From the NCBI GenBank assembly GCA_003024785.1, contig PUQB01000078.1, forward strand, positions 1 through 64,000: a DNA stretch of 64,000 bases, given 5' to 3'. Below are positions 3,573-50,552 of this stretch, one piece after another. Under the pieces are notes generated by a model. The model ran no database searches and was not told the origin of the DNA. It worked only from the letters and a program-made list of their open reading frames with translations. Both the position numbers and the translations under genes were made by a program. The DNA comes from Selaginella tamariscina (lineage: Eukaryota; Streptophyta; Lycopodiopsida; Selaginellales; Selaginellaceae). Numbering within the stretch: the first letter of the stretch is position 1; every line of letters starts with the position of its first letter.

Positions 3573-3865
3573 GGATTTTCAAAAATAACTCTGTCATTCT
3601 AACATGTGGCACAAGAAATTTTTGCAAACCCCTCTCTTATCTCATGGCAATGCTGAAAATCCATGTTCTCAATTGTTTTATTACATCTGCAAAATGATAG
3701 TTAGCTGACCTTATAATTATCAAGGTATATTATTTACCTTGTTAATGTGTGACCCATGTTTAAACTAAAAGCTTCATTAATCCTTAAGAATTTATTTTCT
3801 GTACAAATATAAATAAAATATATAAAAATGCCTTATGTTACACTCATTTACAACTATTCGTCACT

Positions 3866-6800
3866 CTAAGAACTTATTAACAATTCTTCTTTGCTATTAC
3901 CTTCTGAGTAAGGCGAAGAAGGTCTAAGCCGCTTGTGAGATGGTTCATGATCTTCCGTATCTTCTGTTAATGTTTCTATGGGTAATGGAGTGTGTGAATG
4001 TTTTGTACTCCTTGAGATAACTTCCGGTCTAATATCTGATTGAAGTTCGTCCTCAAACTCCAACATTGAACCAGATTCGTCTTCTGAGCTATCGCACTTC
4101 TTGGGAGGGAACTTTCCCAAATACTCCTATATGAGCTTGTTCAGGTCCTCAAACCATGGTCTTATCCTTTTCAATGGCAACACACATGTATCCCGAAGGT
4201 AACACTCCTTCAAGACAGACCCCCTAGTGTAGTAGTCAAAAACCCACGCATCACTGTGAGGATCCCTGATCAAGTTGATGATGCTCCGTGCCACTTGACT
4301 TGTAATGTTTGGATAATGTACATTACCGAATACGTCCCTCTCAGCTATCAGTGTATCGGATGGAGGTTCAAGCCCGTTAGAGTGCAAACAGATGCCTGGC
4401 TAGTCATTTGGAAGTTTGAAATTGTTTGGCGCATTCCTAACAACCAAGTGAACAACCGTATCAATGCACTTAGGATCAGCATCATTCATATAAAATCCTG
4501 TCCAACGATGTTTATTCTTCTTGGTGAAGGTGAAAGCAAAAGTATCGGTGACATGAGCAAGAATCAAGAAATAAATACTTGAAAACATAGGTATCAGTGA
4601 ACATGAATTCAATAATAAATACCTTCTTTGTACATGCTTGCACGGCTAAGTTTCTCCACCAAATCCTCTAGTGTCCTATCTGTCGAAGGATTTTTTGACA
4701 CCCGCTGATCCATCACGAACAATTGAAACAATTTTCTACAAGCAGTGATGTTACCCCATAAAGTCTCTGAATCCAACAACAAACATATGTAGGGCTTGTC
4801 GTGATTCGTAACATCCTCCTTTATAAGATTCAACTCGGTTCTCCGCTGCTGAAGGATTGCCATAAGAGAAGGCATCATCACAATGTTCTCCTTTTTGGCA
4901 TTGGCATGCAATAGATTCTTGCCCATATCTTCCGATTGATTCACCCATTTGACAAGCATATGATCGTTTGTCACATGCAAATATTTGCTAGCCTCTTCGT
5001 ATGTTAAAGCCAAGGTCCAACATAGTTTGTGGCAATGTATTCCCAACCACTCCTTAAAGTGCCTGACTGTCTTCAACTCCATTGTCTTGACATAAAAAGG
5101 AGAGGTGGGGCTGTTGTTGTTAATCTGTAGTTTGCCATCAATCACCAAATCAACCAAGACTTCCATCTCCTCCATCATTGTTCCATTTAAAGGCTTCAAC
5201 CAGTGAGCTTGAAATCGTTGTCTATATCCTTTATAAATTGAACAGACTTAGCCTTCGGCATCTTACTAGGTTTCTTTGCAGACTTCTCTGAGGGCTCCCC
5301 TTCACTTGTCTACTTCTTCTTAATGTTCCTTTTGAAAAGGATTCCATAATCCACAACCATTTGGCAAAGATCTATCCTCGGGACAAGAAATCAACATCAT
5401 CAAAAAGGATGTTTCCTTCCCGCCCACCTGGGCAAAATCAACTGCTACAATTTCTTCAACTCTCTGAAAAAAAGAGACAGATTAATATACCGAGATAAAT
5501 CCCGCCCAGACAATTTGCTTACCCGGTCGCACATTGTGTATTCCTTGCAGTAGCTCTTTGTGGTCGCTGAAGAGATTCCCACACGGCTCGCTGTGTTTGA
5601 ACTTCTCCATATTTTGCTGTTGTAGTGGTTGGTGTCGGCAGCGTCCCATTCCGCGATAACTTATGGTACTGCTCGATTGTGAGATTCGGCTTAGCTAAAA
5701 ATGCCGATCTTTTTGTCAGCTTCTCACGGGTATGCTCGAAAGTTTTGTTGCCATCGTTCCTTTGTTGTGTTCATCGAGAAGTCGTTGGGCTGTTATTGTG
5801 TGCTGGCCACTAATGATGTAGTACTTGATTGATTTTCTATTCTCCGTCTGAATCTTCATGATTTGTTTGGTGTTGTGATCCACACTTTGTCAGCGCCTTT
5901 CTTTCTTTCGTAGTATGGGCACAAAACAGCATTATGTGGAACGGTGTAAGAATTGTCGTCCTTCATCTTCTCCATGAGCTCAGCTACACGTTCCTGGTTG
6001 AGTGGCCTGTAATTGAAGTTTGGGTTGACGCTGCAATACTTAACCCTACACTCATAAATCCTATCATCCAACATCATTTCCTTGTGGCTTATTGCAGCAT
6101 GGGATGCCACAGGTGCAGCTGACAAAACGATTGATGATTTTCTTTTACGATCCGAATCAACATGTGTGATCCCCGATGCAGTGTTCTAATGTTCTCGGCA
6201 CACTCTTCCAGCTCCGAAGTTCCTAAGCAAATTGAACGTGATCTGTAAAGAACCTGGACCGAGCCACCTCTCAATCTCCCTTATGATGTCGCTGTGTTCT
6301 TCTTCAATGTGAAGAGGGACGATTGCTCCACTTGTGGATGTTCTGTATTGTGAAGCAATCTCTGCTGAGAATACACCTACTCGATGAGTCTGAAGATCTT
6401 CGAAGTAGACATCTAATTGGATCCCTCCATAGATGGGCTTTCGTTGAGTTGAAGAAGAACTCCACGGTCAACAATTATGAACACGTGAACATCATTATCC
6501 ACAAGTCGACAAGACCACCCGAGATTAATGTTGTAACTGGCGACCTCTGGATCCGAGAACGTGACATTGGATGGAACAAGGCATATGTGTCGAGCATCGT
6601 CCAATCTGGGTTCGCATGCTTTCGGGTGCTTGACTAGTAAATCTACTTTCCATTGTTTTGCTTGTCCATGCGATGTGACAGAGGTTAGTTTGACAGCAAC
6701 CATGGTTGCTCCAATGCGCTTCCCGTTTAGTTTAAATATGGCCAAGTTGATTCCAGAATCCCCCTGCCCATCTCTTCTCCTGCTCTCGTCTTCAATGTCA

Positions 6801-6904
6801 CCTCAATTCCACATCTGAATACAAAAATGATTAGTTCTTCAAGCACATATCCGAGTATAAAGATTTTATTTTAATTCTTACCCAGAATTTGACGACGACT
6901 CCAT
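3866..6904 (-). pseudogene. ParB-like / methyltransferase-like gene, element I copy
   Basis: This is the minus-strand counterpart of the gene at 30,672-33,814. It keeps the short first exon ending in ESSSNSG (about 6,880-6,904), the N-terminal region of unknown function (6,413-6,800), and the ParB-like stretch NYRPLNQERVAELMEKM (~6,000). The basic linker, the RHFKEWLGIHCHKL region (~5,050) and the C-terminal acidic tail ending about 3,866 are also present. Introns correspond to those of the other copies; the one near 5,460-5,530 also carries a decayed copy of the palindrome. Frames break at several points, for example around 6,240, 5,820 and between 4,387 and 4,120, so it is not functional. 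Unlike the element II copy, it keeps the reading frame at the start of exon 2 and around 4,870. Confidence 0.7.
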
Positions 6905-7073
6905 ACTAATGACTGAATCTCCTTGTTTGATCAAATCGTCCTTTTGCAAAATAATACACTATGAATACAATTCATATAAAAACGACACACACTTATTAAA
7001 CCCGAATAAACAAAATTAATACACAGATAAATTCACATACACCCTCTTTGTCTCAAGAGAAGTGGATGGGATT

Positions 7074-7153
7074 AACTGTCCAAAGCTCACATTTGTGCTA
7101 GTGCAAAAGACAGATAACATTTTTTAGAACCACCAAAATGAGCTTTGGACAGT
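7074..7153. repeat. Conserved hairpin (about 20-bp stem), element I
   Basis: The left arm begins ACTGTCCAAAGCTCACATTT and the right arm is its near-complement ending GGACAGT, with a loop of roughly 40 bases. The same hairpin sits at the same place, between the ParB-side array and the gene start, at 30,484-30,568 and 41,113-41,197. In this copy the right arm has lost several bases (AAAATGAGCTTTGGAC). It could be a regulatory or structured leader element, or an old miniature insertion inherited by all copies. Confidence 0.7.
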
Positions 7154-7264
7154 TTCACATAGTTTACTGGCTTTTACTCAAATATTATGATAAGATGATA
7201 AAAGTAAATAAAATGAGATATGCAACTTATATATACTAATACACATATATATTCACCCCTTCTA

Positions 7265-8300
7265 TGCCTCCTGAAAGGGTGGGCGATTAATCTCGCCACC
7301 TTTCTGAGGCCCTGAATGGTGTGCGGGATTAATCCCGCACCCTTTCGGTCTCAAGAGAACTGGGCAGGATTTATTTGGCACACCCCTTCAGGGGCTCCAA
7401 AAGGTGGCGGGATTAATCTCGCCCACCATGTAAGGGATGGTGAAATTAATCTCGCCACCCTTCTCAGTCCCTCCATTGGTATGCTGTAAACCTTCTCTGT
7501 CTCAAACAGAGGTGGTCGGGATTGATTTACTCACCAATGGAGAAAAAAAAAAGGGTGGCGGATTAATCCGCCACCCCTTCCATGCCTGTGGGCGGATTAA
7601 TCCCGCCCACGACACTCTCATATGGATTAAGGCGGTTGGCGGATTAATCCCGCCACCAGGCATAGAAGGGTCGGCGAGATTAATCCCGCCGCCCTTCGTA
7701 AATCATGCGCACACACACATATATATGGGTGGCAGGATTAATCCCCTCGCCCTCCGAGAAGGGATGGGTGAGGGGCGGGATTAATCCCGCTGCCCTCATG
7801 CAGGGCATGGGCGTGCGGCGGGATTAATCCCCCCGCCTCCGAGAAGGGATGGGTGAGGGGCAGAATTAATCCTGCTGCTCTCCGCGCAGGGCATGGGCAT
7901 GCGACGGGATTAATTCTGCCACACTCCGCACAAGGCATAGGTGTTCAGCCGGATTAATCCTGCCACCCGGGCCCTTCACGTAAACATGAGTGGCGGGATT
8001 AATCCCGCCGCATTCCGCGTAGGGCATGGGTGTGCAGCATGATTAATCCCGCCGCCTAGGCCCTTCACGTAGGCCATGGGCAGCGAGATTAATCTCACCG
8101 CACAACCATGCCCTGCGCAGAATGCGGCAGGATTAATCCCGCCGCCTAAGCCCTTCACGCAAGCCATTGGCAGCGGGATTAATCCCGCCACATTCCGTGC
8201 AGGGCATTCCGTGTAGGCCATTGGTGGCGAGATTAATCTTGCCGCTCATGAGGTTAATCAAATAGCCTGTGTGAAGGGTGGCGGAATTAATCCCACCGCT
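7265..8300. repeat. Palindrome array, ParB side, element I
   Basis: About 1 kb is built of repeated variants of the 18-bp perfect palindrome GGCGGGATTAATCCCGCC with spacers of about 20-45 bases. Spacers in this array contain AGGCCCTTCAC-like and GCGCAGGGCATGG-like segments, shared with the ParB-side arrays at 28,971-30,376 and 41,309-42,670. They are different from those in the transposase-side arrays. Many units here have decayed to CGAGATTAATCTCG. A further 10-bp inverted pair (CTCCATTGGT...ACCAATGGAG) lies at 7,471-7,542. Confidence 0.9.
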
Positions 8301-8358
8301 ATATGGTCACATATATATATGTATGCATGTGTATAGATATAAAACAGATATATATATT

Positions 8359-8420
<62 letters not shown>

Positions 8421-8705
8421 GATATGTATATCATGTGTGTGTGTGTGTGTGCAAAATAAATTAAATTATACACACACACTGTGTAACACACACAACACAC
8501 ACACACACACATATATATATGTATATATATGTATATACAGGAGTGTGCGTGTGTGTGTGAGAGATAGATAAATAATAAAATTATATAGATACTGGTACAC
8601 ATAATATATGTATGTATTTATGTACATAGGTATATATATGTGTGTATATGTATATCGTGTGTATGCGTGTGTGAGCGAAACAAATAAAATCATACAGTAA
8701 ACACA

Positions 8706-8736
<31 letters not shown>

Positions 8737-8960
8737 CAGGAGTGTGCGTGTGTGTGCGAGAGATAAAATTAATAAATTAATAAAATTATATAGATACACA
8801 CACACACACATATATATATGTGTGTGTGGTGTGTGCGAGAGATAAATAAATAAATTTTTTATTAAGATACACACATATATAAATGTATATGTGAATAAAA
8901 ATAAATAAATAAACTCAGGAGTGTATGTGTGAGAGAGAGAGAGATCTCACTTCTGTGTGT
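8301..8960. repeat. TG/CA and AT microsatellite block, element I centre
   Basis: A run of (TG)n of about 28 units at 8,363-8,418 is followed by alternating (TA)n, (TG)n, (CA)n and GA-rich tracts. The unit AGGAGTGTGCGTGTGTG recurs about four times. Open frames seen here are only translations of dinucleotide runs. A matching block is at 42,672-43,450; element II has lost it. Confidence 0.9.
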
Positions 8961-9239
8961 GAGAAAGGGAGATTTCACAACCGCCTCCTTCGCCGCCTTT
9001 CTTCTTGAAACCCTAAGAATATACCTAAACCTTAAAAAGAATATAATATATATTAACCCTAATCAAATATTCCTTCTAAGAATATACTTAAACCCTAAAA
9101 AGAAAAAATATAAATTCGCCCTAAACGAATATTCTTTATATTTCAGCGTGTGCGTGTGTGTGGGTATATCACATACACCCCAAAAATATAAATCATGCAT
9201 GGGTTTAACATGTGTATGTCCATGAGAGTGTTAAAGTTT
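8961..9239. repeat. AAACCCTAA-type and degenerate repeat segment, element I
   Basis: Two or three imperfect copies of a ~65-bp unit containing AACCCTAA and AAGAATATACTTAAACCC are followed by a GTGTGCGTGTG segment. The same pattern is at 43,480-43,760 in element III. No gene is visible. Confidence 0.6.
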
Positions 9240-9960
9240 CACGTGTAGCAACATATATATACACATATAGTATTATACACATAGACATACATACATATTA
9301 GTATATAATATTAAAGAGACATAGTACATATTATGGATCATGCATGGTGTGTATGTATGAGAGAAGAGAGACAATACATATTATGGATCATGCATGGTGT
9401 GTATGTATGAGAGGAGACAGTACATATTATGGATCATGCATGGTGTGTATGTTTGAGAAAAGAGAGATAGTACATATTAATATGGATCATGCATGGTGTG
9501 TGTAGGAGAAGAAGAGGAGATGTTAACAAATTAAAATTCATACACACAGACATACATACATATTATATGTGTAAATTCGGTTTAGGGTTTAGGTTTAGGG
9601 TTTAGGATGGATCATGCATGGTGTGTATGTATGAGAGAAGAGAGAGTGTTGAAAATTAATTTTGTACACATTGCATATATTAGTACACATATATGCATAT
9701 ACATATTATACACAGATATACATACATAGTACATAATATTGTAACATCAATACATATTATAGATCATGCATGGTGTATATGTATGATAGAAGAGAGATAA
9801 TACATATTATGGATTATGCATGTGTGTATGTAAAGAGAAGAGAGAGAATGTTAACAAATTAACATTGTAGACATTGCATATATTAGTACACATATATACA
9901 TACACACGTGTATACACACAGACATACATACATATTACATGTGTAATTCAATGTGTTACA
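9240..9960. repeat. GGATCATGCATGGTGTGTATG minisatellite with TTTAGGG tract, element I
   Basis: An irregular tandem array of about 45-55-bp units contains the palindromic core GGATCATGCATGG followed by TGTGTATGTATGAGAGAAG. Four-fold TTTAGGG-like repeats interrupt it at about 9,583-9,606. The same array is longer at 43,780-44,880 and much reduced near 28,700-28,930. TTTAGGG is the usual plant telomere unit; here it is interstitial. Confidence 0.8.
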
Positions 9961-11382
9961 TTACACGACTAAATACATATAAATCATAATATGTGAACAT
10001 GATGTTTTAATAAAAGAAACAACATATTTCTCTAGTTTGGTTTAGGGTTTAAACCCAATGCAAGTATTTATTATATAAATTTTATATGGTACATAATATA
10101 TACATTAGTATAAAATCTTTATACTAAATATAAACTAAATGCATGCACATTTTTCTAATTATTTACTCTAAATACTAAACATATGTAAGTCCCAATGTAG
10201 AGTGTGTGTAACTATAAATATTTGGTTTTAGTTTTAAACTCTATATCATAAATACAAAACTAGAATGCTTTATTTATATCGTGAATCCACCTCATCAGCT
10301 TGTGCATGTGTGTGCATATGTGTCTTTGTAAGTGCTTCTAATGCGTGTGCACGTGTATATATAAATTTATGATTGTGTTTATATATGTGTGCAAAACAAC
10401 ATCGAATAATTAAGAAAATAATATTAATAAACACACTATGAACATATTTTAAATTATACATAATAATATATGATTTTATCTAATATATAGCCATATAGTT
10501 TAATAATATATATTAATTTAATATTGATAATAAGGTTTAACATTGGAAATATTCTTGAAATAATAATAAATTAATTGAGAAAATCCCATTATATATACAA
10601 ATGTAGATCAAGTACTAAAAATAATTAACTAAATTAATTATGATAATCATGTTTTATTGGATATTCTTGGAATAATAAGAAAATAATAAAGAAATATCCC
10701 ATTAATAGTAGAAATGTAAAGAAAATAATAATAATAAACAGACTATGAATATATTTTTAATGATACATAATAATATATCAATTTATTATTGTATAAGTAT
10801 ATATATATATATATAATTATATATACTTGATATTAAGAATGTAGAATAATTTTAAAATTTTGTAATATTAAATAGCTTAAATCACTTAAATAACATTAAA
10901 TGTAATTTTATAACACTCATGGAATTAGAAAATAATATGTCAGAATGTCGGTTATTTGTGTCAACTCATCTTAAATTTTATTTTTTGTTCTTTTCAAAAA
11001 TTTGAAATTTCTGACATAAGTATTGTTGGTCTGACATGTAAATTTGAAAATGCATTTAATTTCCCATTCAAATTCAGATTTGGTTTTCTTCGCAAGGTTT
11101 TTTATTTCTGTATTTTTCACTCTTCAGATCTTCTTTTTCCTTCATAATGATCAGCTCAGAAGCGACATTAAATTGGGTGCTATTATTTATAGGAAAGCAC
11201 GGTGCGTTCAGTGTTATTTACAAGTATTATAAATAAATTAAATATACTTATAAAGATTCACTTTCTTACATTCTCTCTTAAAATTAAAATTTAGGGGTTT
11301 AGGAATGCATTAGGATTACAATATATTTCGTTAGGATTTATCCCCGTTTAAATATCCTTTAACTTAATATTCTCGGTTAGCC
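9961..11382. other. AT-rich centre of element I with possible transposase leader exon
   Basis: No gene is visible in most of this stretch, which is about 75-80% A/T. At about 11,130-11,223 lies a segment conserved in all three elements (GACATTAAATTGGGTGCTAT...). In elements II and III it ends in a good 5' splice site (CAA|GTAAGTATT); here the site has decayed to CAAGTATT. It may be the first exon of the transposase transcript. The upstream 11,000-11,130 segment is also conserved among copies and may hold the promoter. Confidence 0.45.
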
Positions 11383-12013
11383 GGCGGGGATTAATCCGGC
11401 CATTTTTTTTGCCTCTTGAAGAGGTGGCGGGATTAATCCCGCCACCATTCTTTATAGCTATGGCAGAATTAGTCGGGCAATGCTTCTCCGCCTCTAAAAA
11501 GAGCAGCGGGATTAATCCGCCGATAACTCTCTCAACTAATAAAGAGTTACCTGAATTTATTAAAAGATTGTCGGTGGGATTAATCTGCCAACCATTTTAG
11601 AGGAAAGAAGGGTGGCGGGATTAATCTCGCCACCATTCCCTGTTTTAAAGATTTGTGGGCAGATTTATCCCGAGATCTCTTTGAAATATATTTAGAGAGT
11701 TGTGGGCGGATTAATCCCGCCTATTCCGTCGTAAGAGTTGTGGGCGGGATTAATCCCCGCCTCTTCCTCGAGGGAGTTGCAGCGGGATTAATCCCCCCGC
11801 CTCTTCCTGTCGGAGGATTGCGGCGGGATTAATCCGCCACTCTTCCTCGAGAGGAGTCCGGCGGGATTAATCCCGGCCTTCTCCGAGGAAGATCCGGGCG
11901 GGATTAATCCGCCGATCCCGCCGACTCTCTCCGAAGGGGTAGAGTCGGCGCGGGATTAATCCCGCCCCGTTCCTCGTCGGAGGGAGTCGTGGGCGGGATT
12001 AATCCCGCCCATC
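11383..12013. repeat. Palindrome array, transposase side, element I
   Basis: Roughly a dozen or more variants of GGCGGGATTAATCCCGCC occur with short spacers rich in CTCTCCGACGAGGAAG-like sequence, itself partly inverted between neighbours. The array ends about 150 bp before the transposase coding start. The counterparts are 26,316-27,045 and 46,079-46,802. Confidence 0.9.
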
Positions 12014-12160
12014 AGTTGTATTAATCAAAGCATGAGATATTATCTCTATACATAATTATGTATTATTGCACATGCATATTATTAAGCAACCAGTTCAATT
12101 TCTTAGAAATATTGCATAAACAGATATCATAAAAAACAAATTATTTATGTGCAGGACAAT

Positions 12161-15100
12161 ATGTTTAATACTGGAGATAAAGTATGTCTTCTTCGGAACA
12201 AGATAGTTGGCACTGGAACTGTGGAAGTTCGAGATGATAATGCATCATGTCACAATATTGCCCAAGGATCTTGTGTGTACGTATGGGTGAACACCATTTA
12301 CAAGCATGTTGAGGTTCGGGAATGGAATTTGAGGAGGGTTCTCCTGTATTGTGGAATTTGGATGAAGTCAAGGCTGACACAGAATATGCAGAGTCACAAA
12401 CAAATAGTAGCACGAGTTTACCAGATGATGGCTTGCCTGCTGTGATGGATGAGGTGATTCTCTTTCTTCATGAGATTGAGGTTGGGAGAGGCATCATCAC
12501 AGCTATAAATCCAATGGAAGCAGTGTCAGAAGAGAAACTAGGGTCCGACTTCGTGGGTGTAGTTGTGACAGAGGTTTCACCTAATGGCACATTGCATCCT
12601 GGATCCCTCGTGAGGTGGCGAACATCTGAATTAAGACGGCAAGATGGTTCAACATATTCTGGGTTGGATTTCAATAATAACAACCCGGAAGAACAACTCA
12701 TATTTGAAGAGGTTCCTTGCATTGGTCCTATTTAAAAAAAGGCGATTCATGGGTTGCAGATCTTCCCCTGCAAGTTTCAGCAAGAGGGTAAGATGGATCC
12801 TACATCTTCCGAAAGTGTTACGAGCATTTCCACGATTGACTGCTGCAAGAAGAAGTGTTGTCAGATGGCAGACCGGAATGAAATTACCCAATGTAGACAT
12901 GTCTTTCGTACGCTCACCCAAAAGCAAAGGCATGAGTTTGTATATGCTGCACTAACTGGGTGTATTGATGGAATGGCCTCGGACACAGGTTATCAGAGTA
13001 CATCCATGGTATTTAATAAGGTGGCCATCTGCTTCAAAGCTTGGTACAGTATATACGGGATCCCAAAGACCACGTTCTACCGTCGGAGGGATGAGTGGCT
13101 AGATGGAGCGCGAACCTCAGTACATGGGAACACTCGCTTGGTCAAAACCCGCTCTCACATTATGGCAGCCATAGAGATACTCAAGGCTTTTGTGGAAGCA
13201 AATGCAGACAGGATGCCTCACAAATGCCGAACCACAAATGCAGGGGTCAGGGAAAATCTCAAGGTTTTGCCTTCAATCTACACTCAATTGAAGCTGTGTG
13301 AACATGTGAACAAGTGCCTCAGTTTGATGGGGCTCCAAGCAATCTGCACTGGTACCTTCAACAACATATGGAATACTCATTTTAAGGATGTGGAGATTGC
13401 AAAACACTCTAGCTTTTCCAAGTGTGACACTTGTACATCATTGAAGGCTGCAGAGGCTTGTGCAAAAACCTTGGTGGAGATCACTGCCATTCAAAAGAAG
13501 ATGGAGGCCCACATGATTGCACAACAAACTTGCCGGTCTCAGTACTATGCACACCGCATGCTTTCTGTGTCACGCCCATCAGAGTACCTGTGCTTGATCC
13601 ATGACAAGATGGATCATTCAAAGACCAGCATTCCAAAGCTTTGCAACACCAAAGTGCCTTGGAAATGTCATGAAACTTCCGATTTCATTGACAGGTGTGC
13701 TAACACATGGACACGGTTGTGAGTCATATGGACACTTTTCACTTCCACATTGGTCTAGCGACTCCAATTTCACTATTGGGTCGTTGGCCATGTGTTTCAG
13801 AAACCTTGAAGCCCACTCACAGACAAGTCCTATCAGTGATCTCAAAGTGAAGAAACAACACCTTCAACCTTTACATAATGCTCTCATGAACACGTCTGCA
13901 CTTGAGGCTACTTGGGAATATGAGAGGCATTGTCAGCAACCTGCACAAAAAACAGATGGCCCTGTTGAGAGTTCAGGTTCAGTGGAGGGATCTAGCTCAA
14001 ATAGTGTACATGTGTCCTCAACATCAAATAAGCTTCCTCGTCATTTGCTTTTACAGATGGATAATTGTGCAGGCGAGAACAAAAATAGGTAAATCATTTT
14101 ACTTAAGGGTTTCTCAAGCTCATACTTACTTTTATTTTCTAGATATGTGCTAGCATACTTGTCAATGCTTGTTGCCAAAGGTGTGTTTGAAACAATCACG
14201 CTCAGTTTCCTTATGGTTGGTCACACTCATGAAGATATTGATGCGTTCTTCAGCAAGGTCTCCAACTCTAAAAAAGACAAGTGCACTTACCTTACCGCAT
14301 ATGATGAATCTTTTTGAAAATTGCATCTCCAAAAAAAGTTGTGCTTTGCTTGTGACTGAGGTGCCAGACTTCAAAAAATTTCTAAGGAGTATATAAAAGA
14401 GGGAGTGATTCTTTAGTTGGTCACCTTGTGCCGCTACAATTCTTTTTCTCCATACGAGATGGTATACCTATTATGCAGTACAAGTTACGGCCATCAGAGC
14501 AGGAGTGGTTACCGAAAGAGGGCTTAATGCTCTTCAAAAGTGGAGAGGATGGAAAGCCACTTCTCCCAGAAGGACAACCAGACCCTATTCCATTGAGTGC
14601 CCAGCTCAAGGAACAAGAGGTTATTATTGATGGCATCAAAAAATATGTGGCATGGGTTCAAAAATCGATGCCAAAGAATTCTGATAAGGCAACTGGTTAC
14701 TCAGAACTATATAAGCATGTGGTCGACTATTGGGAGACTGTTGTTCGAGAGTTGGAAGGGCCTACTGTCACAAGTACAGAATTGCAACACCCTTTTGGCC
14801 TAAAACAAGGTGGCGAGAGGAGATTGAAATGACATCACTGAGCACAGACGACATAGAAGCCAGTAGTGATGTGGAAGTGCAAACCCCACACTTTGTTGGA
14901 CAAAGGAACCAAAAACCTAAAGCATACTTTGATTGCTGCAAGGATCTTCAAAAACTAATGATGGTTCTCATTACTCCAGATGCGTCATATAATCAGCCTA
15001 TTTGGATGGGTCAAATTATCGACACACCTGAAGTAATCACAAAAAATAGTATTGTTAAGGTTGCATGGTTCAAACCACAAAAAAGGCGACACGAGAAGGA

Positions 15101-15263
15101 GAGCGAAAGATATAATGGATGCCTAGAGAAAACATGGTCTCCCAATCAAAAAGACCCAGCATGTTTTATAAATGTTAAATCCATTCGATATGGGTGGATG
15201 TCAAGAATTGATAAAGTCACGATTAACAAAACTGCAAGGGAATGTATGTTTTCTGAAGCTTAA
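12161..15263 (+). pseudogene. DDE-type transposase gene, element I copy
   Basis: The coding region starts at or just before ATG 12,161 (a splice acceptor GTGCAG|GAC precedes it). Two N-terminal modules (12,161-12,370 and 12,450-12,640) resemble plant TNP1-like domains, for example ITAINPMEAVSEEKLGSDF. A Cys-rich and helix-turn-helix-like region with IPKTTFYRRRDEW (~13,070) follows. Catalytic-type motifs are LIHDKMDHSK (~13,590), MDNCAGENKNR (~14,060) and VGHTHEDIDAFFS (~14,218). A 54-base intron (14,089-14,142) splits the last two motifs. Frames break near 12,205, 12,320, 12,735, 13,645, 13,890, 14,270, 14,390 and 14,795, so this copy is dead. Inferred role: cutting and joining element ends in the nucleus. 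Confidence 0.8.
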
Positions 15264-15526
15264 AGCAATTACAAAATTATAAAATATCATATATTTAATA
15301 TTCATAATTATTATAAACTCTTTAATAATAGTACCAAATTGTTTAACTATATAAATTTAAAAAATGATATGGAAGATTGACTATATTATTATAGGATTTT
15401 ATATATATATTATTATACTACTAATTTAATTTTAATTAATAATGTTATATTTAAATATTAATATTTTAATAACAATCAATATTTATATAATGTACCTCTT
15501 ATGCTCTTCCTTAATTATTATATTAG

Positions 15527-16270
15527 GCGGCTTCGACTGGCCCATGAGCTTAGCCAATGCTGGTCAAGCTCGTGCCATCCCAACTAGGGTGGATAAAAGC
15601 CCAGCAACAGTTGTTGCTCGGCTTTGGGCCGCCCCTTAAGCTTGAACAGAGCTAATGAACCCAGTAGTTGTTATGGGGCTTTGGGCCGCCTCCTAGATGT
15701 AAATGAATGTAAGAAAAGAAGAAGAGAGGATAAAAGACTACTATGATTTGCTTGTTCTTTTACCATTCTCTCCCGATTTGTGTAGGAAAACATACATAAA
15801 TTAGGGTAGAATGAGAATATATTAAGAATATACTAAGAATAATGAGAATATTTTAAAAAATTCATCTGTATTATTTTTTAAATTTTAATTATATGTGTTA
15901 AAATAAAAATAAAAATATAAAATAAAAATAAATATTTTTTACATATAAAAATACACATTACGCATGAAATTTTTAAAAAAGGTTGTGAAAAAGGTGGCGA
16001 GCTGTGCGTCATTAAGGGTGGCTAAGGACCCCCACCTCCCTTCAATTTTCTTTGTAATTTTGGAGTGTTCTCTTAAATTAGGTTAAGAGAAGGTTGCGAA
16101 ATCACTGGCCTTAGTGGTCAAACCCTTAAAAAATCTTAAGAAACCATGCGAATTCAATGCCCTTAGCCGTTAAACCCTTTAGTAAGTGGTTATTCAACTT
16201 AAGGGCGAATACAAATCCATTTTCCCTTACTTAAGCCCACTTAAGTTAAGTGTGGTGCGAAACGACCCTC
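15527..16270. other. Intergenic block of unknown origin next to element I
   Basis: The element match stops abruptly and a more GC-rich segment begins (15,527-15,720). In it GGCTTTGGGCCGCC appears twice about 60 bp apart, each preceded by CAGNNGTTGTT-like sequence. This looks like part of an unrelated repeat or LTR, but I cannot identify it. From 15,780 to 16,270 the DNA is AT-rich with a short CCCCCACCTCCC stretch. No gene is seen. Confidence 0.4.
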
Positions 16271-40800: not shown

Positions 40801-40971
40801 TTGAAATATGGCCAAGTTGATTCCAGAATCCCCCTGCCCATCTCTTCTCCTGCTCTCTTCTTTAATGTCACCTCAATTCCACATCTGAATACAAAAATGA
40901 TTAGTTCAAGCAATATCCGAGTATAACAGATTTTATTTTAATTCTTACCCAGAATTTGACGACGACTCCAT
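37899..40971 (-). pseudogene. ParB-like / methyltransferase-like fusion gene, element III copy
   Basis: This is the same gene as at 30,672-33,814, read leftward from the short first exon (ATG at 40,971). The beginning of exon 2 is intact here (GIEVTLKKRAGEEMGRGI), unlike in element II. The ParB-like segment NYRPLNQERVAELMEKM is at about 40,080-40,030 and YYIISGQHTITAAQRLLDE at about 39,890-39,830. A long open frame (39,950-39,456 and 39,459-39,028) spans an intron with a decayed palindrome at 39,545-39,563. The FDYCTRGSVLKECYL segment lies near 38,300. Frame breaks occur around 40,720, 40,250, 40,160, 39,190, 38,970 and 38,130. Confidence 0.65.
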
Positions 40972-41112
40972 ACTAATGACTCGATCTCCTTGTTTAATAA
41001 ATCGTCCTTCTGCAAAATAATACACTATGAATACAAATCATATAAAAACGCACACACACTTGTATAAACCCGAATATACAAAAATAATACACAGAGAGAA
41101 GTAGACGAATTA

Positions 41113-41197
41113 ACTGTCCAAAGCTCACATTTGTGCTAGTGCAAAAGAAAGATAACATTTCGTTTTAGAACCACCACAAATGTGAGCTCTGGACAGT
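41113..41197. repeat. Conserved hairpin, element III
   Basis: The arm ACTGTCCAAAGCTCACATTT pairs with CACAAATGTGAGCTCTGGAC ending at 41,197. Sequence and position are as in elements I and II. Loop bases are more variable than the arms. Confidence 0.75.
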
Positions 41198-41308
41198 TTT
41201 ACATAGTTCCTAGCTTTTACTCGAAATATTATGATAAGATGATAAAAGTAAATAAAATGAGATATGCAACTTATATATACTAATACACATATATATTCAC
41301 ATGGAAGG

Positions 41309-42670
41309 TGCGGCGGGATTAATCTCGCCACCCCTTCAATGCCTCCTGAAAGAGTGGGCGGGATTAATCTCGCCACCTTTCTGGAGGCCTTGAACGGGAG
41401 TGCGGAATTAATCTTGCCACCCTTCTCGGTCTCAGAGAGAACTGGGCAGGATTTATTTCACACCCCTTCAGTGACTCCAGAAAGGAGGCGGGATTAATCT
41501 CGCCCACCATGTAAGGATGGTTAAATGAATTTCCCACCCTTCCCAGTTCTCTCCATTGGTATGTTGTAAACCTTCTACGTCTCAGACAGAAACGTTTGGG
41601 ATTGGTCCGACTCACCAATGGAGAAAAAAAGGAAGGGTGGCGGGATTCATTCCTCCAACAGGCATTGAAGGCTCGGCGGGATTAATCCCGCCGCCCAGGG
41701 CCTTCACTCGGTCCCTATGCGGCGGGATTAATCCCGCCGGACGCCAATTCCCTGCTCAAATCGGGCGGGATTAATCCCGCCGCCTAGGCCCTTAGGCAGG
41801 CCTTTGGCGGCGGGATTAATCCGCCCGATTCGCGCAGGGTAGCGGATTAATCCCGCCGCCCGGCCCTTCACTGGCCTAGCGGCGGGATTAATCCCGCCCG
41901 ATTCGCGCAGGGTAGCGGATAATCCCGCCGCCCGCCCTTCACTCGGGCCTAGGCGGCGGGATTAATCCGCGGACGCCATGCCCTACGCAGAATCGGGCGG
42001 GATTAATCCCGCCGCCTAGGCCCAGTGAAGGACGGGCGGCGGGATTAATCCGCCGGACGCAATGCCTCTGCGAAATCCGGCGGGATTAATCCCGCCGCCT
42101 AGGCCCTTCAGGCAGGCCAATGGCGCGGGATAAATCCCGCCCGATTCCGCACAGGGCATGTGTACGCGGCGGGATTAATCCTGCTGCCCAAGCCCTTCAT
42201 TCGGGCCTTAGCGGCGGGATTAATCCCGCCGGACGCCAATGCCCTGTGCAGAATCCGGCGGGATTAATCCCGCCGCCTAGGCCCTTCAGGCAGGCCAATG
42301 GCGGCGGGATAAATCCCGCCCGATTCCGCGCAGGGCATGCGTATGCGGCGGGATTAATCCGCCGCCCAGGCCCTTCACTCGGGCCTTAGTCGGCGGGATT
42401 AATCCCGCCGGATGCCAATGCCTGTGCAGAATCGCGGGATTAATCCCGCCACCTAGGCCCTTCAAGCAGGCCAATGGCGGCGGGATAATCCGCCTGATTC
42501 CGCACAGGGCATGCATAGGCGGAGGGATTAATCCTGCCGCCCAGGCCCTTCACTCGGGCCTGAAATGGCGGCGAGATTAATCCCGCCGCCGAGTGGCTAA
42601 TTATATAACGACGGATAATCCCGCCACTACACACGTCTCACCATATAGCGGCGGATTAATCCCGCCGCTA
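41309..42670. repeat. Palindrome array, ParB side, element III
   Basis: More than twenty GGCGGGATTAATCCCGCC variants carry the ParB-side spacer types (CTAGGCCCTTCAGGCAGGCC and GCCAATGCCCTGTGCAGAAT). Higher-order repetition of about 100-190 bp is visible around 42,080-42,480. The inverted pair CTCCATTGGT...ACCAATGGAG is at 41,551-41,621. Confidence 0.92.
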
Positions 42671-42671
42671 C

Positions 42672-42807
42672 ACACACAACACATATATATGTATATGTAT
42701 ATGTATATACGCGTGTGTGTTCGAGAGATAGATAAATAAATAAAATTATACAGATACTGGTACACATAATATATGTATGTATACATAAGTATATATATAT
42801 ATATATA

Positions 42808-42849
<42 letters not shown>

Positions 42850-43028
42850 TGTGTGTATGTATATCGTGTGTATGCGTGTGTGAAACAAATAAAATCATAT
42901 AGATAAACAAACACACCACACACACATATATATACAGGAGTGTGTGTGTGTGCAAGAGATACAATTAACAAATCAATAAAATTATAAAGATACACACACA
43001 CACACATATATATAGATAAATAAATAGA

Positions 43029-43084
<56 letters not shown>

Positions 43085-43450
43085 TATATATATCTGTGTG
43101 TGTATATGTATACGAGTGTGCGCGTGTGTGCGAGAGATAGAGATCTATAGAGGAGAGAGAGAGAAGGAGATATATAATAATATGTTGTGTGTGTGTGTGT
43201 GTGTCGAGTGTGCGTGTGTGCGAGAGATAGAGATCTATAGAGAAGAGAGAGAGAGAAGGAGATATATATATATATATATATATATATCTGTGTGTATATG
43301 TATACGAGTGTGCGTGTGTGTGCGAGAGATAGAGATCTAAATTATATTATTAAGATACACACACATATAAATATATATGTGAATAAAAATAAATAAATAA
43401 ACGCAGAGGAGTGTGCGTGTGAGAGAGAGAGAGAGATCTCACCTGTGTGA
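42672..43450. repeat. TG/TA/GA microsatellite block, element III centre
   Basis: It alternates (TG)n, (TA)n and GAGAGA tracts, with a repeated ~110-bp unit carrying GAGATAGAGATCTATAGAG at about 43,130, 43,220 and 43,325. It is homologous to 8,301-8,960. No coding potential beyond dinucleotide translations. Confidence 0.9.
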
Positions 43451-43779
43451 GAGAGAGAAGGAGATTTCGCCGCCGCCTTACAACCCTAGGAATATACTTA
43501 AACCCTAAAAGAAATAAAATATATATTAACCTAATCGAATATTCCTTTTAAGAATATACTTAAACCCTAAAAGAAATAGAATATATATTAACCCTAATCG
43601 AATATTCCTTCTAAGAATATACTTAAACCCTAAAAAGAATAAACTTTAGATTCGCCTAAACGAATATTCTTTCATTATATTATCAGCGTGTGCGTGTGCG
43701 TGGGTGTATCACATACACCCAAGAATAAATATCATGCACGGGTTTAACACGTGTGTGTCCATGAGACTGTTAAAGTTTC
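43451..43779. repeat. AAACCCTAA-type ~70-bp repeat segment, element III
   Basis: Three imperfect copies of a unit with AAGAATATACTTAAACCC and CGAATATTCCTT are present, equivalent to 8,961-9,239. No gene is visible. Confidence 0.65.
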
Positions 43780-44880
43780 ACGTGCAGCGATACATATATA
43801 CACACATAGTATTATACACATAGACATACATACATATTAATACATATTAATATTAGAGAGACAGAGTACAGGATCATGTATAGTGTGTATGTATGAGAGA
43901 AGAGTGACAATACATATTATGGATCATGCATGGTGTGTATGTTTGAGAAAAGAGAGACAATACATATTTACATGGATCATGCATGGTGTGTATGTATGAG
44001 AGAAGAGTGAGAGTGTTAACAAATTAAATTCATACACATTGGATATATTAGTACACACATATACATACACATGTGTATACACACAAACATACATACATAT
44101 TACATGTGTAAATTCAATGTGTTATACACAGATATACATACATAGTATATGAAGAAGAGAGACAGTACATATTATGGATCATGCATAGGGTTTAGGGTTT
44201 AGGGTTTAGGGTTAGGATGGATCATGCATGGTGTTTATGTATAAGAGGAGTGAGTGTTATACACAGATATACATTATACATATTACATAATATTGTAACA
44301 TCAGTACATATTATGGATCATGCATGGTGTGTATGTATGAGAGAAGAGTGAGAGTGTTAACAAATTAAATTCATACACATTGGATATATTAGTACACACA
44401 TATACATACACATGTGTATACACACAGACATACATACATATTACATGTGTAAATTCAATGTGTTACATAGGGTTTAGGGTTTAGGGTTTAGGGTTAGGAT
44501 GGATCATGCATGGTGTTTATGTATGAGAGGAGTGAGTGTTATACACATATATACATTATACATATTACATAATATGTAACATCAGTACATATTATGGATC
44601 ATGCATGGTGTGTATGTATGAGAGAAGAGACAGGCTACATATTATGGTCATGATCATGCATGGTGTGTATGTATGAGAGAAGGATTATGCACGGTGACAC
44701 TGTGTATGTATGAGAGAAGAGATAGAGTGTTAACAAATGAAAATCGTACACATTGCATATAATATAGTACACATTATACATACACATGTGTATACACACA
44801 GACATACATATATATACATGTGTAAATTCAATGTGTTACATACACACACATTGAGTACATATAGATCATACATGCGTTGA
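43780..44880. repeat. GGATCATGCATGG minisatellite with TTTAGGG tracts, element III
   Basis: About ten units carry GGATCATGCATGGTGTGTAT followed by GTATGAGAGAAGAG. Two runs of four TTTAGGG-type repeats lie at about 44,187-44,214 and 44,468-44,496. A longer unit of about 285 bp containing the telomere-type run is itself duplicated in tandem here. Confidence 0.85.
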
Positions 44881-46078
44881 ACATGAGTTTTTTCAATAAA
44901 GAAGCAACATATAATTTCTCAAGTTTGGTTTAGGGCAATGTGCATGTGTGTGCATATGTGTCTCTGTAAGTGCTTCTAATGCGTGTGCACATGTATATAT
45001 AAATTTATGATTATGTTTTATATAATATGTGCAAAACAAACATCAAATAATTAAGAAAATAATATTAATATACACACTATGAACATATTTTAAATTATAC
45101 ATAATAATATATAATTTTATCTAATATATAACCATATATAGTTTTAATAATATATATTAATTTAATATTGATAATAAGGTTTAACACTAGAATATTCTTG
45201 AAATAATAACAAATTAATTGAGAAAATCCCATTAATATATACAAATGTAGAATAATTAATGAGATAATTAAGAATAAGACTAATTTAATTATGATAATCA
45301 TGTTTAATATTGGAATATTCTTTTGAATATTAAGAAAATAACAAAGAATATATCCCATTAATAGTAGGAAATGTAAATTAATTACTCGAGTAATTAAAAA
45401 TAATAATAATAAATAGACTATGAATATATTTTAAGTGATACATAATAATATATCAATTTATTTATTGTATTAGTGTATATATATATATATATATATATAT
45501 AAAAACTTAATAATATATACTTGAATATTAAGAATGTAGAATAATTATAAAAATTTCGTAATATTAAACAGCTTGAAGCACTTGAATGACATTAAATGCA
45601 ATTTTAAAACACTCATTAGAATGGAGAGTATATATGTCAGACTATCGGTTATTTGTTTCAACTCATCTAAATTTTCTTTTCTATTATTTCAAAAATTTCG
45701 AATTTCTAACATAAGTATTATCAGTCTGACATGTAAATTTGAAAATACATTTAATATCCCACTTAAATTCAGATCTGGTTCTTTCTCCGGCAAGGTTTCT
45801 CATTTTCACTCTTCACATTTTCTTTTTTCTTCTTAATGATCAGCTCAGGAGCGACATTAAATTGGGTGCGCTATTGTTTATAAGAAAGCACGGCGCCTTC
45901 AGTGCTGTTTACAAGTAAGTATTATAAATAAATTAGATATATTATAAAGATTCATTCTCTTACATTCTCTCTTAAATTTTAGAATTTAGGGATTTAGGAA
46001 TGCATTAGGATACAATATATTCTGTTAGGGATTTATCATGTTTAAATATACCCTTTAACTTAATATTCTCGGTTAGCC
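44881..46078. other. AT-rich centre of element III with possible transposase leader exon
   Basis: Mostly AT-rich without genes. The conserved segment 45,836-45,914 ends in a strong 5' splice site CAA|GTAAGTATT. With the acceptor at 46,941-46,942 it would define a ~1.03-kb intron that contains the palindrome array. In this copy two extra bases change the frame of the segment compared with elements I and II. Confidence 0.4.
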
Positions 46079-46802
46079 GGGCGGCGGGATTAATCCGGCC
46101 ATTTTTTTTTGCCTTTTTGAAGAGGTGGCGGGATTAATCCCGCCACCATCTCTTTCATAGCTATGGCAGAATTAGTTCGGGCAATACTTCTCCGCTTCTT
46201 AAAAAGAGCGGCGAGATTAATCCCGCTGATAACTCTCTCAACTGATAATGATTTATTTGAATTTATTAGAAAGAAGTTGTCGGCGGATTAATCTCGCCAA
46301 CCATTTTAGGAGACAGAAAAGGGTGGCGGGATTAATCTCGTCACTACTTCCCTTTTTAGATATTTGTGGGCAGAATTCATCCCGAATCTCTTTGAAATTA
46401 TAGTTTCGGAGAGTTGTGGGCGGGATTAATCCCGCCGCTTATTCCCCGTCGTCAGAGTTGTGGCGGGATTAATCCCGCCGCCTATTCTCCGTCGTCAGTG
46501 TTGCCCCCTTTTCCTCGTCGGAGGAATTTACGGCGAGATTATCCCGCCGACTCTCACAGACAAGGAAGATCTGGCAGCGGGATTAATCCCGCCAGTACTT
46601 CCTCGTCGGAGGGAGCCCACGCGGGATTAATCCCGCCGCTACTTCCTTGTCGGAGGGAGCCCACGGCGGGATTAATCCTGCCGCTTCTCTCCGACGAGGA
46701 AGTATTGCCGCCTCTGTTCGACGGGGTAGATTAACGGCGGGATTAATCCCGCCGACTCTCTCCGATGGGTAGAGTCGACGGCGGGATTAATCCCGCCCAT
46801 CA
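46079..46802. repeat. Palindrome array, transposase side, element III
   Basis: About fifteen variants of GGCGGGATTAATCCCGCC occur with CCTCGTCGGAGGGAG-type spacers, like 11,383-12,013 and 26,316-27,045. The left part is more degenerate. Confidence 0.9.
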
Positions 46803-46948
46803 GTTATATTAATAAAGCATGAGATATATTTTTATATATAATTATGTATTATTGCACATGCATATTATTAAGCAACCGCAGTTATGATTTCTTAGAAATA
46901 TTGCATAAGATAATCATAAATAACACAATTATTTATGTGCAGGACAAT

Positions 46949-49900
46949 ATGTATAATACTGGAGATAAAGTATGTCTTCTTCGGAACACGAGATAGTTGG
47001 CACTGGAACTGTGGAAGTTCGAGATGATAATGCATCATGTCACAATATTGCCCAAGGATCTTGTGTGTACGTATGGGTGAACATCATTTTCAAGCATGTT
47101 GAGGTTCCTGGAATGGAATTTGAGGAGGGTTCTCCTGTATTGTGGAATTTGGATAAAGTCAAGGCTGACACAGAATACAGAGTCACAAACAAACAGTAGC
47201 ACGAGTTTTCCAATGATGGCTTGCCTACTGTGATGGATGAGGTGATTCTCTTTTTCATGAGATTGAGGTTGGGAGAGGCATCATCACAGCTATAAATCCA
47301 ATGGAAGTAGTGTCAGAAGAGAAACTAGGGTCCGACTTCGTGGGTGTAGTTGTGACAGAGGTTTCACCTAATGGCACTTTGCATCCTGGATCCCTCGTGA
47401 GGTGGCGAACATCTGAATTAAGACGGCAAGATGGTTCAACATATTCTGGGTTGGATTTCAGTAATAACAACCCGAAAGAACAACTCATATTTGAAGAGGT
47501 TCCTTGCATTGGTCCTATTATAAGAAAAAGGCGATTCATGGGTTGCAGATCTTCCCCTACATGTTTCAGCAAAAGGGTGAAGATGGATCCTACATCTTCC
47601 AAAAGTGTTACATTTTCACGATTGACTGCTGCAAGAAGAAGTGTTGTCAGATGGCAGACCGGAATGAAATTACCCAATGTAGACATGTCTTTCGTACACT
47701 CACCCAAAAGCAAAGGCATGAGTTTGTATATGCTGCACTAACTGGGTGTATTGATGGAATGGCTTCGGACACAGGTTATCAGAGTACATCCATGGTATTT
47801 AATAAGGTGGCCATCTGCTTCAAAGCTTGGTACAGTATATATGGGATCAAAACCACGTTCTACCGTCGGAGGGATGAGTGGTTAGATGGAGCGCGAACCT
47901 TAGTACATGGGAACTGGCTTGGTCAAAACCCGCTCTCACATTATGGCAGCCATAGAGATACTCAAGGCTTTTGTGGAAGCAAATGCAGACAAGATGCCTC
48001 ACAAATGCCGAACCACAAATGCAGGGGTCAGGGAAAATCTCAAGGTTTTGCCTTCGATCTACACTCAATTGAAGCTGTGTGAACATGTGAACAAGTGCCT
48101 CAGCTTGATGGGGCTGCAAGCAATCTGCATTGGTACCTTCAACAACATATGGAATACTCATTTTAAGGATGTGGAGATTGCAAAACACTCTAGCTTTTCC
48201 AAGTGTGACACTTGTACATCATTGAAGGCTACAGAGGCTTGTGCAAAAACCTTGGTGGAATCACTGCCATTCAAAAGAAGATGGAGGCCCACATGATTGC
48301 GCAACAAACTTGCCGGTCTCAGTACTATGCACACCGCATGCTTTTGTGTCACACCCATCAGAGTACCTGTGCTTGATCCATGACAAGATGGATCATTCAA
48401 AGACCAGCATTCCAAAGCTCGTTGCAACACCAAAGTGCCTTGGAAATGTCATGAAACTTCTGATTTCATTGACAGGTGTGCTAACACATGGACACGGTTG
48501 TGAATCATATGGACACTTTTCACTTCCACATTGGTCTAGCACTCCAATTTCACTATTGGGTCGTTGGCCATGTGTTTCAGAAACCTTGAAGCCCACTCAC
48601 AGACAAGTCCTATCGGTGATCTCAAAGTGAAGAAACAACACCTTCAACCTTTACATAATGCTCTCATGAACACGTATGCACTTGAGGCTACTTGGGAATA
48701 TGAGAGGCATTGTCAGCAACCTGCACAAAAAACAGATGGCCCTGTTGAGAGTTCAGGTTCAGTGGAGGGATTTAGTCAAATAATGTACATGTGTCCTCAA
48801 CATCAAATAAGCTTCCTCGTCATTTGCTTTTACAGATGGATAATTGTGTAGGCGAGAACAAAAATAGGTAAATCATTTTACTTAAGGGTTTCTCAAACTC
48901 ATACTTACTTTTATTTTCTAGATATGTGCTAGCATACTTGTCAATGCTTGTTGCCAAAGGTGTGTTTGAAACAATCACGCTCAGTTTTCTTATGGTTGGT
49001 CACACTCATGAAGATATTGATGCATTCTTCAGCAAGGTCTCCAACTCTACAAAAAGGACAAGTGCACTTACCTTACCGCATATGATGAATCTTTTTGAAA
49101 ATTGCATCTCCAAAAAAAGTTGTGCTTTGCTTGTGACTGAGGTGCCAGACTTCAAAAAATTTCTCAAGGAGTATATAAAAGAGGGGAGTGATTCTTTAGT
49201 TGGTCACCTTGTGTCGCTACAATTCTTTTTCTCCATACGAGATGGTATACCTATTATGCAGTACAAGTTACGGCCATCAGAGCATGAGTGGTTACCGAAA
49301 GAGGGGTTAATGCTCTTCAAAAGTGGAGAGAATGGAAAGCCACTTCTCCCAGAAGGACAACCAGACCCTATTCCATTGAGTGCCCAGCTCAAGGAACAAG
49401 AGGTTATTATTGATGGCATCAAAAATATGTGGCATGGGTTCAAAAATCGATGCCAAAGAATTCTGATAAGGCAACTGGTTACTCAGAACTATATAAGCAT
49501 GTGGTCAACTATTGGGAGACTGTTGTTCGAGAGTTGGAAGGGCCTACTGTCACAAGTACAGAATTGCAACACCCTTTCTGGCCTAAAACAAGGTGGCGAG
49601 AGGAGATTGAAATGACATCACTGAGCATAGACGACATAGAAGCCAGTAGTGATGTGGAAGTGCAAACCCCACACTTTGTTGGACAAAGGAACCAAAAACC
49701 TAAAGCATACTTTGATTGCTGCAAGGATCTTCAAAAACTAATGATGGTTCTCATTACTCCAGATGCGTCATATAATCAGCCTATTTGGATGGGTCAAATT
49801 ATCGACACACCTGAAGTAATCACAAAAAATAGTATTGTTAAGGTTGCATGGTTCAAACCACAAAAAAGGCGACACGAGAAGGAGAGCGAAAGATATAATG

Positions 49901-50049
49901 GATGCCTAGAGAAAACATGGTCTCCCAATCAAAAAGACCCAGCATGTTTTATAAATGTTAAATCCATTCGATATGGGTGGATGTCAAGAAGCGTTGATAA
50001 AGTCACGATTAACAAAATTGCAAGGGAATGTATGTTTTCTAAAGCTTAA
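46949..50049 (+). pseudogene. DDE-type transposase gene, element III copy
   Basis: It starts at ATG 46,949 (YNTGDKV after the acceptor) and ends at 50,049, with a 54-base intron at 48,868-48,921. It retains both TNP1-like modules, TTFYRRRDEW (~47,855), LIHDKMDHSK (~48,375) and VGHTHEDIDAFFS (~48,995). It alone keeps the frame across HPFWPKTRWREEIEM (~49,580). MDNCAGEN has become MDNCVGEN (48,835-48,860). Frames break near 47,195, 47,620, 47,850, 48,265, 48,540, 48,770 and 49,425. Confidence 0.8.
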
Positions 50050-50524
50050 AGCAATTACAAAATTATAAAATATCATATATTTAATATTCATAATTATTAT
50101 AAACTCTTTAATAATAGTACCAAATTGTTTACTTAACTATATAAATTTAAAAAATGATATGGAAGATTGACTATATTATTATAGGATTTTATATATATTT
50201 ATTACTACTACAAATTTTTAATTAATAATGTTATATTTAAATATTAATATTTTAATAACAACATCAATATTTATATAATGTACCTCTTATGCTCTTCCTG
50301 AATTGTTATATTAGGCAATATATTATATAATTTAATACCTTCTACTTTTATAATGTTATTAATTTTTGTTCAATGAATGCTATAATTTATTAAAGGGTAG
50401 AATACAAAATAGAATATTCTAAAGAATATTTTGTTTTCAAACATATATTCTAAAGAATATTCTTTAATATTAGAAAATGCTAATTAAATAGCTAAAATTG
50501 CTAATTATTAGGAAATGGGATTAG

Positions 50525-50552
50525 CCATGCCCATTTTAGTTACAACATGCAT
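50525..50552 (-). repeat. Terminal inverted repeat, transposase end of element III
   Basis: Read inward on the minus strand: ATGCATGTTGTAACTAAAAT then GGGCATGG. Just outside is AATA (50,553-50,556), followed by the rest of the interrupted 54-bp unit. Confidence 0.8.

Follow-up and report, generated by a model that had tools for sequence, protein, structure and literature searches.

What kind of mobile element has left three large, gene-bearing copies in one stretch of the genome of Selaginella tamariscina, and what purpose do the palindrome arrays in these copies serve? We analyzed a 64-kb window (the whole stretch from position 1 to 64,000 of contig PUQB01000078.1), with genome-wide counts taken over 300.7 Mb in 1,391 contigs. 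The original prediction had described the window as holding three copies, here called Elements I, II and III, of an apparently undescribed 13–14 kb DNA transposon with a transposase gene on one side and a ParB/methyltransferase-like and a phosphatase-like gene on the other. The best overall explanation of our results is a Sola-like giant transposon with selected accessory genes and operator-like palindrome arrays for an element-encoded binder, an account to which we give somewhat less than an even chance.

The common architecture of I, II and III, with divergent genes, a centre and two palindrome arrays, was borne out by self-BLAST. Elements I and II are 90.6% identical across the ParB-like gene and 96.8% across the transposase gene and part of its array; Elements II and III are 94.6% identical on the ParB side and 91.8% on the transposase side, including the array and part of the centre. 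Elements II and III are complete, but I is cut at both ends, so that the claim of three copies stands in that qualified form. The measured length is 12.9–14.4 kb for II and III, and 13.8–15.4 kb for 13 other pairs of terminal inverted repeats (TIRs). Elements II and III have AATA on both sides and an imperfect TIR, as had been claimed, but the TIR measures 26 bp rather than about 28 bp and AATA is not a preference.

A genome-wide search with the TIR pattern, allowing up to two mismatches, returned 4,272 matches (2,200 forward and 2,072 reverse), and the reversed control returned none. Pairing was analyzed for the first 100 TIR places listed, every one an exact match. These contained 27 facing pairs, 13 of which span 13.8–15.4 kb, and 11 of these 13 join one transposase-side (A-type) end to one ParB-side (C-type) end. 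Flanks were checked in 16 of these 27, ten of them fetched on purpose and six taken from TIR loci; the remaining pairs have mostly very long or short spans. Identical 4-bp flanks, the expected target-site duplication (TSD), were found in 10 of the 16 and mismatched flanks in 6, compared with a match in 1 of 240 non-partner combinations. All ten matching TSDs differ (TAGA, CGTT, CTAT, ATAA, TGGT, TATC, ATGT, ATTA, GTAG and AAGA), and AATA as a fixed target was rejected.

The two sides of the element also travel together. For 20 stretches taken 6.5–14 kb past a transposase end, BLAST aligned 17 to the ParB–phosphatase side over more than 1.5 kb; the three lacking such a match were L014, which has palindromes but mainly other open reading frames (ORFs), L015, a miniature element with no palindrome, and L017, which is 76% N. 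On the evidence of these stretches and the mixed-type end pairs, two independent halves were rejected, and the copies examined gave no sign of halves occurring separately with their own TIRs. The family is numerous and young, because TIR matches are many and copies are nearly identical: a 601-bp transposase-side piece gave 1,121 first-look candidates in the genome, of which 40 were scored and all showed 100% identity after rounding, and the 17 long-matching ParB-side stretches are 94.5–99.2% identical to II across 4.1–5.6 kb. Separately, the TIR places L034 and L035, which lie on C1 at a distance of 18.6 kb from each other, share the same 24-bp flanks, which points to a duplication taking in the element end.

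The array unit is a perfect 18-bp palindrome, GGCGGGATTAATCCCGCC, which has 27,128 exact copies in the genome and none in the reversed control. Exact copies number 23 in II, 14 in III and 3 in I; at 14–23 per full element, the genomic total would correspond to an estimated 1,200–1,900 array-bearing copies. Each element has two arrays, one upstream of the transposase gene and one upstream of the ParB-like gene, and all three copies have one further palindrome inside a putative intron of the ParB-like gene. With up to two mismatches the window holds 85 sites (shuffled sequences, 0), and with up to four mismatches 112, of which 33 are in I, 40 in II and 39 in III. Spacing is regular: among 102 neighbour gaps of at most 200 bp, 56 measure 42–46 bp, 78 measure 36–54 bp and 10 measure 79–98 bp, and Tandem Repeats Finder (TRF) reports tandem arrays whose periods are close to 44 and 89 bp.

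These tandem periods, together with the number and youth of the copies, would also be expected if tandem duplication and conversion had spread an arbitrary unit, with conservation reflecting recency alone. We consider such neutral arrays improbable, since the flanks are near random while the palindromes are kept: palindrome positions carry 1.0–2.0 bits (mean 1.6 per base) and flanking letters 0.0–0.4, a contrast partly built in by selecting sites as palindromes. Elements II and III differ at 0 of 177 palindrome bases versus 13 of 374 spacer bases. When 17 copies are compared with II (best BLAST piece per copy; L012, L014, L015 and L017 left out), mismatches fall on 66 of 6,171 palindrome bases versus 260 of 13,661 spacer bases (Fisher p 1.3e-5, with bases treated as independent).

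A second alternative makes a host transcription or silencing factor the binder, with the arrays as promoters borrowed from the host or targets of repeat-induced silencing. The location of the arrays upstream of both genes fits this idea, and so do the telomere-type repeats in the element centre, a class of repeat that acts as a promoter box in plants. We nevertheless judge it unlikely, given that the 112 window sites are confined to the elements, with none in the remaining 24.8 kb, and that, of the 27,128 genomic sites, most of the 100 listed appeared by eye to be clustered, with few alone.

Miniature elements bear on what the arrays do not do. Two derivatives measuring 244 and 245 bp (L015, TSD CTAC; L036, TSD TTAA) consist of only two element ends, with no genes and no palindromes; a further pair of TIRs, with a span of 246 bp, is known from coordinates alone. 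The internal join is much the same at the two loci, so it was probably the deleted form that transposed; for either locus taken alone, shrinkage in place is possible. Because these two derivatives of about 245 bp have no arrays, the arrays are probably dispensable for transposition, and the proposal that palindromes are required for it was rejected. The same derivatives, with their TIRs and TSDs, count against the palindromes being bound by the transposase itself as a self-regulating operator or transposition enhancer, with some other role for the ParB-like protein, as does the lack of any palindrome-like sequence within the TIRs. Self-regulation by transposases is common, and one array does lie upstream of the transposase gene; on balance we think this binder doubtful, about on a par with a host factor.

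The transposase itself is identified by domain. PF25273 (DUF7869) matched the ORF at 23483–24226 of II with an E-value of 4.4e-27, and weakly, below the cut-off, the ORF at 24166–25944 (3e-05); the C-terminal exon of II was placed by its match to III, and copy I has the motif MDNCAGENKNR. Ten database proteins (P0001–P0010) match the transposase at 26–52% identity, and HDKMD, MDN and GHTHxDID are recurring motifs when these relatives are aligned. The order of strands and helices around the three motifs was read from a model of P0001 that is too poor for use (predicted local distance difference test score (pLDDT) 43, 12 alignment rows), and Foldseek found no match in the PDB at E ≤ 0.001. At 49414–50049, the C-terminus of the transposase resembles by eye that of P0001, P0006 and P0007 (from the FVGQ/YVGP/FVGH stretch onward); no Pfam family matched this region at E ≤ 0.001. 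The ratio of non-synonymous to synonymous divergence (dN/dS) of the transposase is 0.17 for I/II, 0.37 for I/III and 0.24 for II/III.

Taken together, these features best place the element as a cut-and-paste giant DNA transposon of 13–15 kb nearest to the Sola group, compared here with the published description of that group. The suggested Sola membership is in line with the 4-bp TSD, the TIRs and a possible D-D-D/E pattern of the type carried on an RNase H-like fold. DUF7869 was nowhere named Sola in the search results, and this domain name gave no match in a literature search that left most subscription papers outside.

Two accessory genes occupy the other side of the element. The phosphatase-like gene was confirmed as NIF/FCP-type, with PF03031 scoring 46.9 bits against a cut-off of 21.8; its E-values are 3e-12 on the L012 ORF and 1.7e-11 on the L009 ORF. 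For the ParB-like gene of II we propose five coding exons encoding a spliced protein of about 960 amino acids (aa), with putative introns at 30735–30795, 31350–31395, 32112–32172 and 33019–33071; the reading frame of II is broken in at least two places. The breaks at 31350 and 32112 appear to be short introns with GT..AG ends rather than frameshifts. The proposed intron at 31350, at 46 bp, would be unusually short for a plant.

Selection on these genes was assessed with frames taken from the exons of L026 and II, after removal of codons with gaps, N or stops, and for selected pairs. For the ParB-like gene, dN/dS is 0.27 (II/III, 923 codons), 0.38 (I/II) and 0.53 (I/III), and 0.25–0.28 between III and four other copies; for the phosphatase gene it is 0.47 (II/III, 304 codons) and 0.44–0.51 between III and the same four copies. 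Among three close-copy pairs, the values are 0.34 and 0.64 for the ParB-like gene and 0.53 and 0.95 for the phosphatase gene, and otherwise undefined. Given the values between sublineages, selection has maintained both accessory genes, and the ParB-like gene, the third gene of the element, shows purifying selection.

These observations can be drawn together in a mechanism. The DUF7869 protein, whose role as transposase follows from its domain, would act on the 26-bp imperfect TIRs and produce the 4-bp duplications. The palindrome arrays would serve as operator-like sites for a dimeric DNA-binding protein encoded by the element, the likeliest candidate being the ParB/methyltransferase-like protein. 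Through such binding, both promoters may stay active in the face of host silencing, or the DNA of the element may be marked, in the way that VANC proteins act on the VANDAL elements of Arabidopsis by binding their repeats. A plausible guess for the phosphatase is that it modulates host transcription through its NIF/FCP domain.

Several results weigh against this mechanism, most of them concerning the ParB-like protein. Its ParB reading had rested on the stretch RPLNQERVAELMEKM...YYIISGQHTITAAQRLL and its methyltransferase reading on AWVFDYCTRGSVLKEC...VFAVEKD. The motif order is presumably that of beta-class methyltransferases, for which we take DPPY to be the catalytic motif; because the expected position reads DSET instead, self-methylation by this protein appears doubtful. 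No ParB family matched in Pfam, NCBIfam or PHROGs, where the sub-threshold hits were unrelated (PH_BUD3_C, 0.036; intein_Nterm, 0.098; phrog_21535, 0.13). Against our own profile of 80 ParB (Spo0J-type) sequences, 61 of 1,000 shuffles scored as high (hhalign E 0.096). A phage ParB-methyltransferase profile was built from 43 loci, out of 80 fetched, in which an ORF of more than 330 aa carried both motifs. Its ParB part was equaled by 135 of 1,000 shuffles, and hhalign (E 0.055, probability 1%) set GQHTITAAQRL against GHGRVLAARKL; for the later exons 617 and 789 of 1,000 shuffles did as well, with an hhalign match (E 0.054) at a place other than the expected motif. The best PDB sequence hits (E 0.063 and 0.34) were chains of unrelated name, protein searches with the 415-aa ORF and with residues 240–900 of the 960-aa spliced reading found no relatives, and a phage tblastn and a viral-contig scan gave no result. 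A single-sequence AlphaFold model of the ParB segment was too poor for use (pLDDT 37). Because the profile tests are negative or inconclusive, the ParB/methyltransferase label used in the original prediction is not established and holds at the motif level only.

The remaining objections concern the arrays. The choice of sites through II favors the palindrome/spacer mismatch contrast, so we place more weight on the even spacing of palindromes whose spacers have diverged. The ratio of observed to expected CpG is 0.79–1.25 in the arrays versus 0.39–0.40 in the transposase gene, but the palindrome-masked spacers of II and III give 0.68, with no clear sign of methylation protection; the CpG excess in the arrays is thus no proof of such protection. 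The TSD would likewise survive if a full element shrank where it stood, so that the miniature case comes down to two loci with much the same join.

A ParB-like motif beside palindrome arrays also recalls ParB/parS, and the arrays could in principle be replication or partition sites of an element with an extrachromosomal phase. The performance of the Spo0J/ParB profile, no better than shuffles, and the ordinary integration with TIRs and TSDs make this very improbable. Our specific proposal is instead one of transposon self-recognition. An element protein would read the 18-bp palindrome, whose copies are often spaced by about four helical turns, at the two promoters and also within an intron, thereby shielding or marking many hundreds of copies. 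This would be a second, independent VANC-like anti-silencing system, built on a ParB/methyltransferase-derived protein whose catalytic motif is perhaps lost and aided by a captured phosphatase. We regard this full version as speculative, appreciably less probable than the general account given at the outset, and still ahead of any single rival.

The individual copies also record rearrangement and insertion. The transposase side of Element I has a synonymous divergence of 0.025 from II, its ParB side one of 0.154. Element I is thus a mosaic, in which recombination has probably swapped halves. Elements II and III are separated by 704 bp (35469–36172), with their ParB-side ends facing each other and an identical AATA duplication. 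Elsewhere, at C1:2394830–2395103, two ParB-side ends (L041 and L042) stand back to back with 222 bp between them. This pair and the II/III spacing hint at local or clustered insertion. Plant-type telomere repeats of TTTAGGG occur three times in tandem in the AT-rich centres of II (28641–28661) and III (44191–44211 and 44473–44493), and Element I has two separate telomere-type units, at 9581 and 9594; these repeats are possibly promoter boxes. Coordinates of all element features are given in the table.

Table. Features of the three transposon copies in the 64-kb window.
Feature	Position	Strand	Basis or remark
Element I, both ends lost, no TIR, no phosphatase gene	3587..15528	+	Self-BLAST limits, sequence
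ParB-side palindrome array of I	7322..8297	.	
Transposase-side palindrome array of I	11426..12009	.	
Element II, complete, 12.9 kb	22544..35468	-	Both TIRs and AATA TSD each side; left, transposase gene (-); right, ParB-like and phosphatase genes (+)
Transposase-side TIR of II	22544..22569	+	
Transposase gene of II, interrupted by intron(s) and/or indels	23050..25944	-	DUF7869; CLIHDKMD, GHTHEDID motifs
Palindrome array 1 of II, upstream of transposase gene	26319..27041	.	
AT-rich centre of II	27042..28972	.	Holds (CCCTAAA)3 at 28641-28661
Palindrome array 2 of II, upstream of ParB-like gene	28973..30334	.	
ParB/methyltransferase-like gene of II	30712..33814	+	Splice signals and frames compared across copies
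Palindrome, 2 mismatches, in proposed 61-bp intron 32112-32172 of II	32128..32145	+	Counterparts in I (5489) and III (39545)
NIF/FCP-type phosphatase gene of II	34034..35180	+	Two overlapping frames in II; one ORF in L012, L009
ParB-side TIR of II	35443..35468	-	
Element III, complete, 14.4 kb	36173..50552	+ (opposite to II)	TIRs and AATA TSD
Phosphatase and ParB-like genes of III	36461..40937	-	
ParB-side palindrome array of III	41312..42587	.	
Transposase-side palindrome array of III	46083..46797	.	
Transposase gene of III	47240..50049	+	

Outside the three copies, the window holds a long terminal repeat (LTR)-type retroelement on the minus strand at 53989–60242, with reverse transcriptase and integrase core domains and flanked by two repeats of about 550 bp that are 90% identical. 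A retroelement fragment with an integrase zinc-binding domain lies at 1163–1699, and the start of an epimerase-type gene at 63339–63818 (PF01370, 1.7e-4).

Among known systems, the Sola superfamily is described as having TIRs, a 4-bp TSD and a DDD transposase, with lengths mostly of 2–9 kb and some above 15 kb, and has been reported from the moss Physcomitrella (PMC10741241, PMC9033089). The present element shares the TIRs and the 4-bp TSD, and adds accessory genes and palindrome arrays to the features given in the available parts of those descriptions. The DUF7869 proteins P0001–P0010 are relatives of the transposase, compared as proteins alone. A close parallel is Sola1-1_Ec32 of the brown alga Ectocarpus, a 21.5-kb Sola1 DNA transposon with an accessory gene that lies on the other strand from the transposase and encodes a 1104-aa protein described as ParB-like with an N4C/N6A DNA methyltransferase (PMC12477816). 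Both are giant DNA transposons with an accessory gene opposite the transposase, a likeness by description; they differ in length (13–15 kb here) and in the size of the accessory protein (about 960 aa by the proposed splicing), and the available text of that report mentions neither a phosphatase nor a palindrome array. The description of the element as apparently undescribed therefore needs qualifying, as a ParB-methyltransferase Sola-1 giant is known, but the arrays, the phosphatase and the abundance were not found described together. Within the literature searched, the combination of a phosphatase, paired palindrome arrays and high copy number had no joint description, and these three features look new. 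A published proposal holds that the algal ParB-methyltransferase accessory proteins bind the very transposon that encodes them and modify it, with no target site named in the available text (PMC12477816). For such self-binding, GGCGGGATTAATCCCGCC, with its 27,128 exact copies and two arrays per element, is a striking candidate target, and because it is visible in the sequence the proposal becomes directly testable.

Unlike the present element, VANDAL elements are Mutator-type, VANA21 being the transposase gene of VANDAL21. VANC21 is the nearest working model for the proposed mechanism. In the available text on that system, the motif targeted by VANC21, YAGTATTAY, is found in tandem repeats upstream of VANA21 and also within introns of VANC21 and VANB21 (PMC5735166). 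Both systems have repeated motifs upstream of the transposase gene and in accessory-gene introns, a likeness of motif arrangement alone, and the motif here is an 18-bp palindrome rather than YAGTATTAY. If the proposed self-recognition is true, plant-lineage transposons would have evolved sequence-specific recognition of their own DNA more than once.

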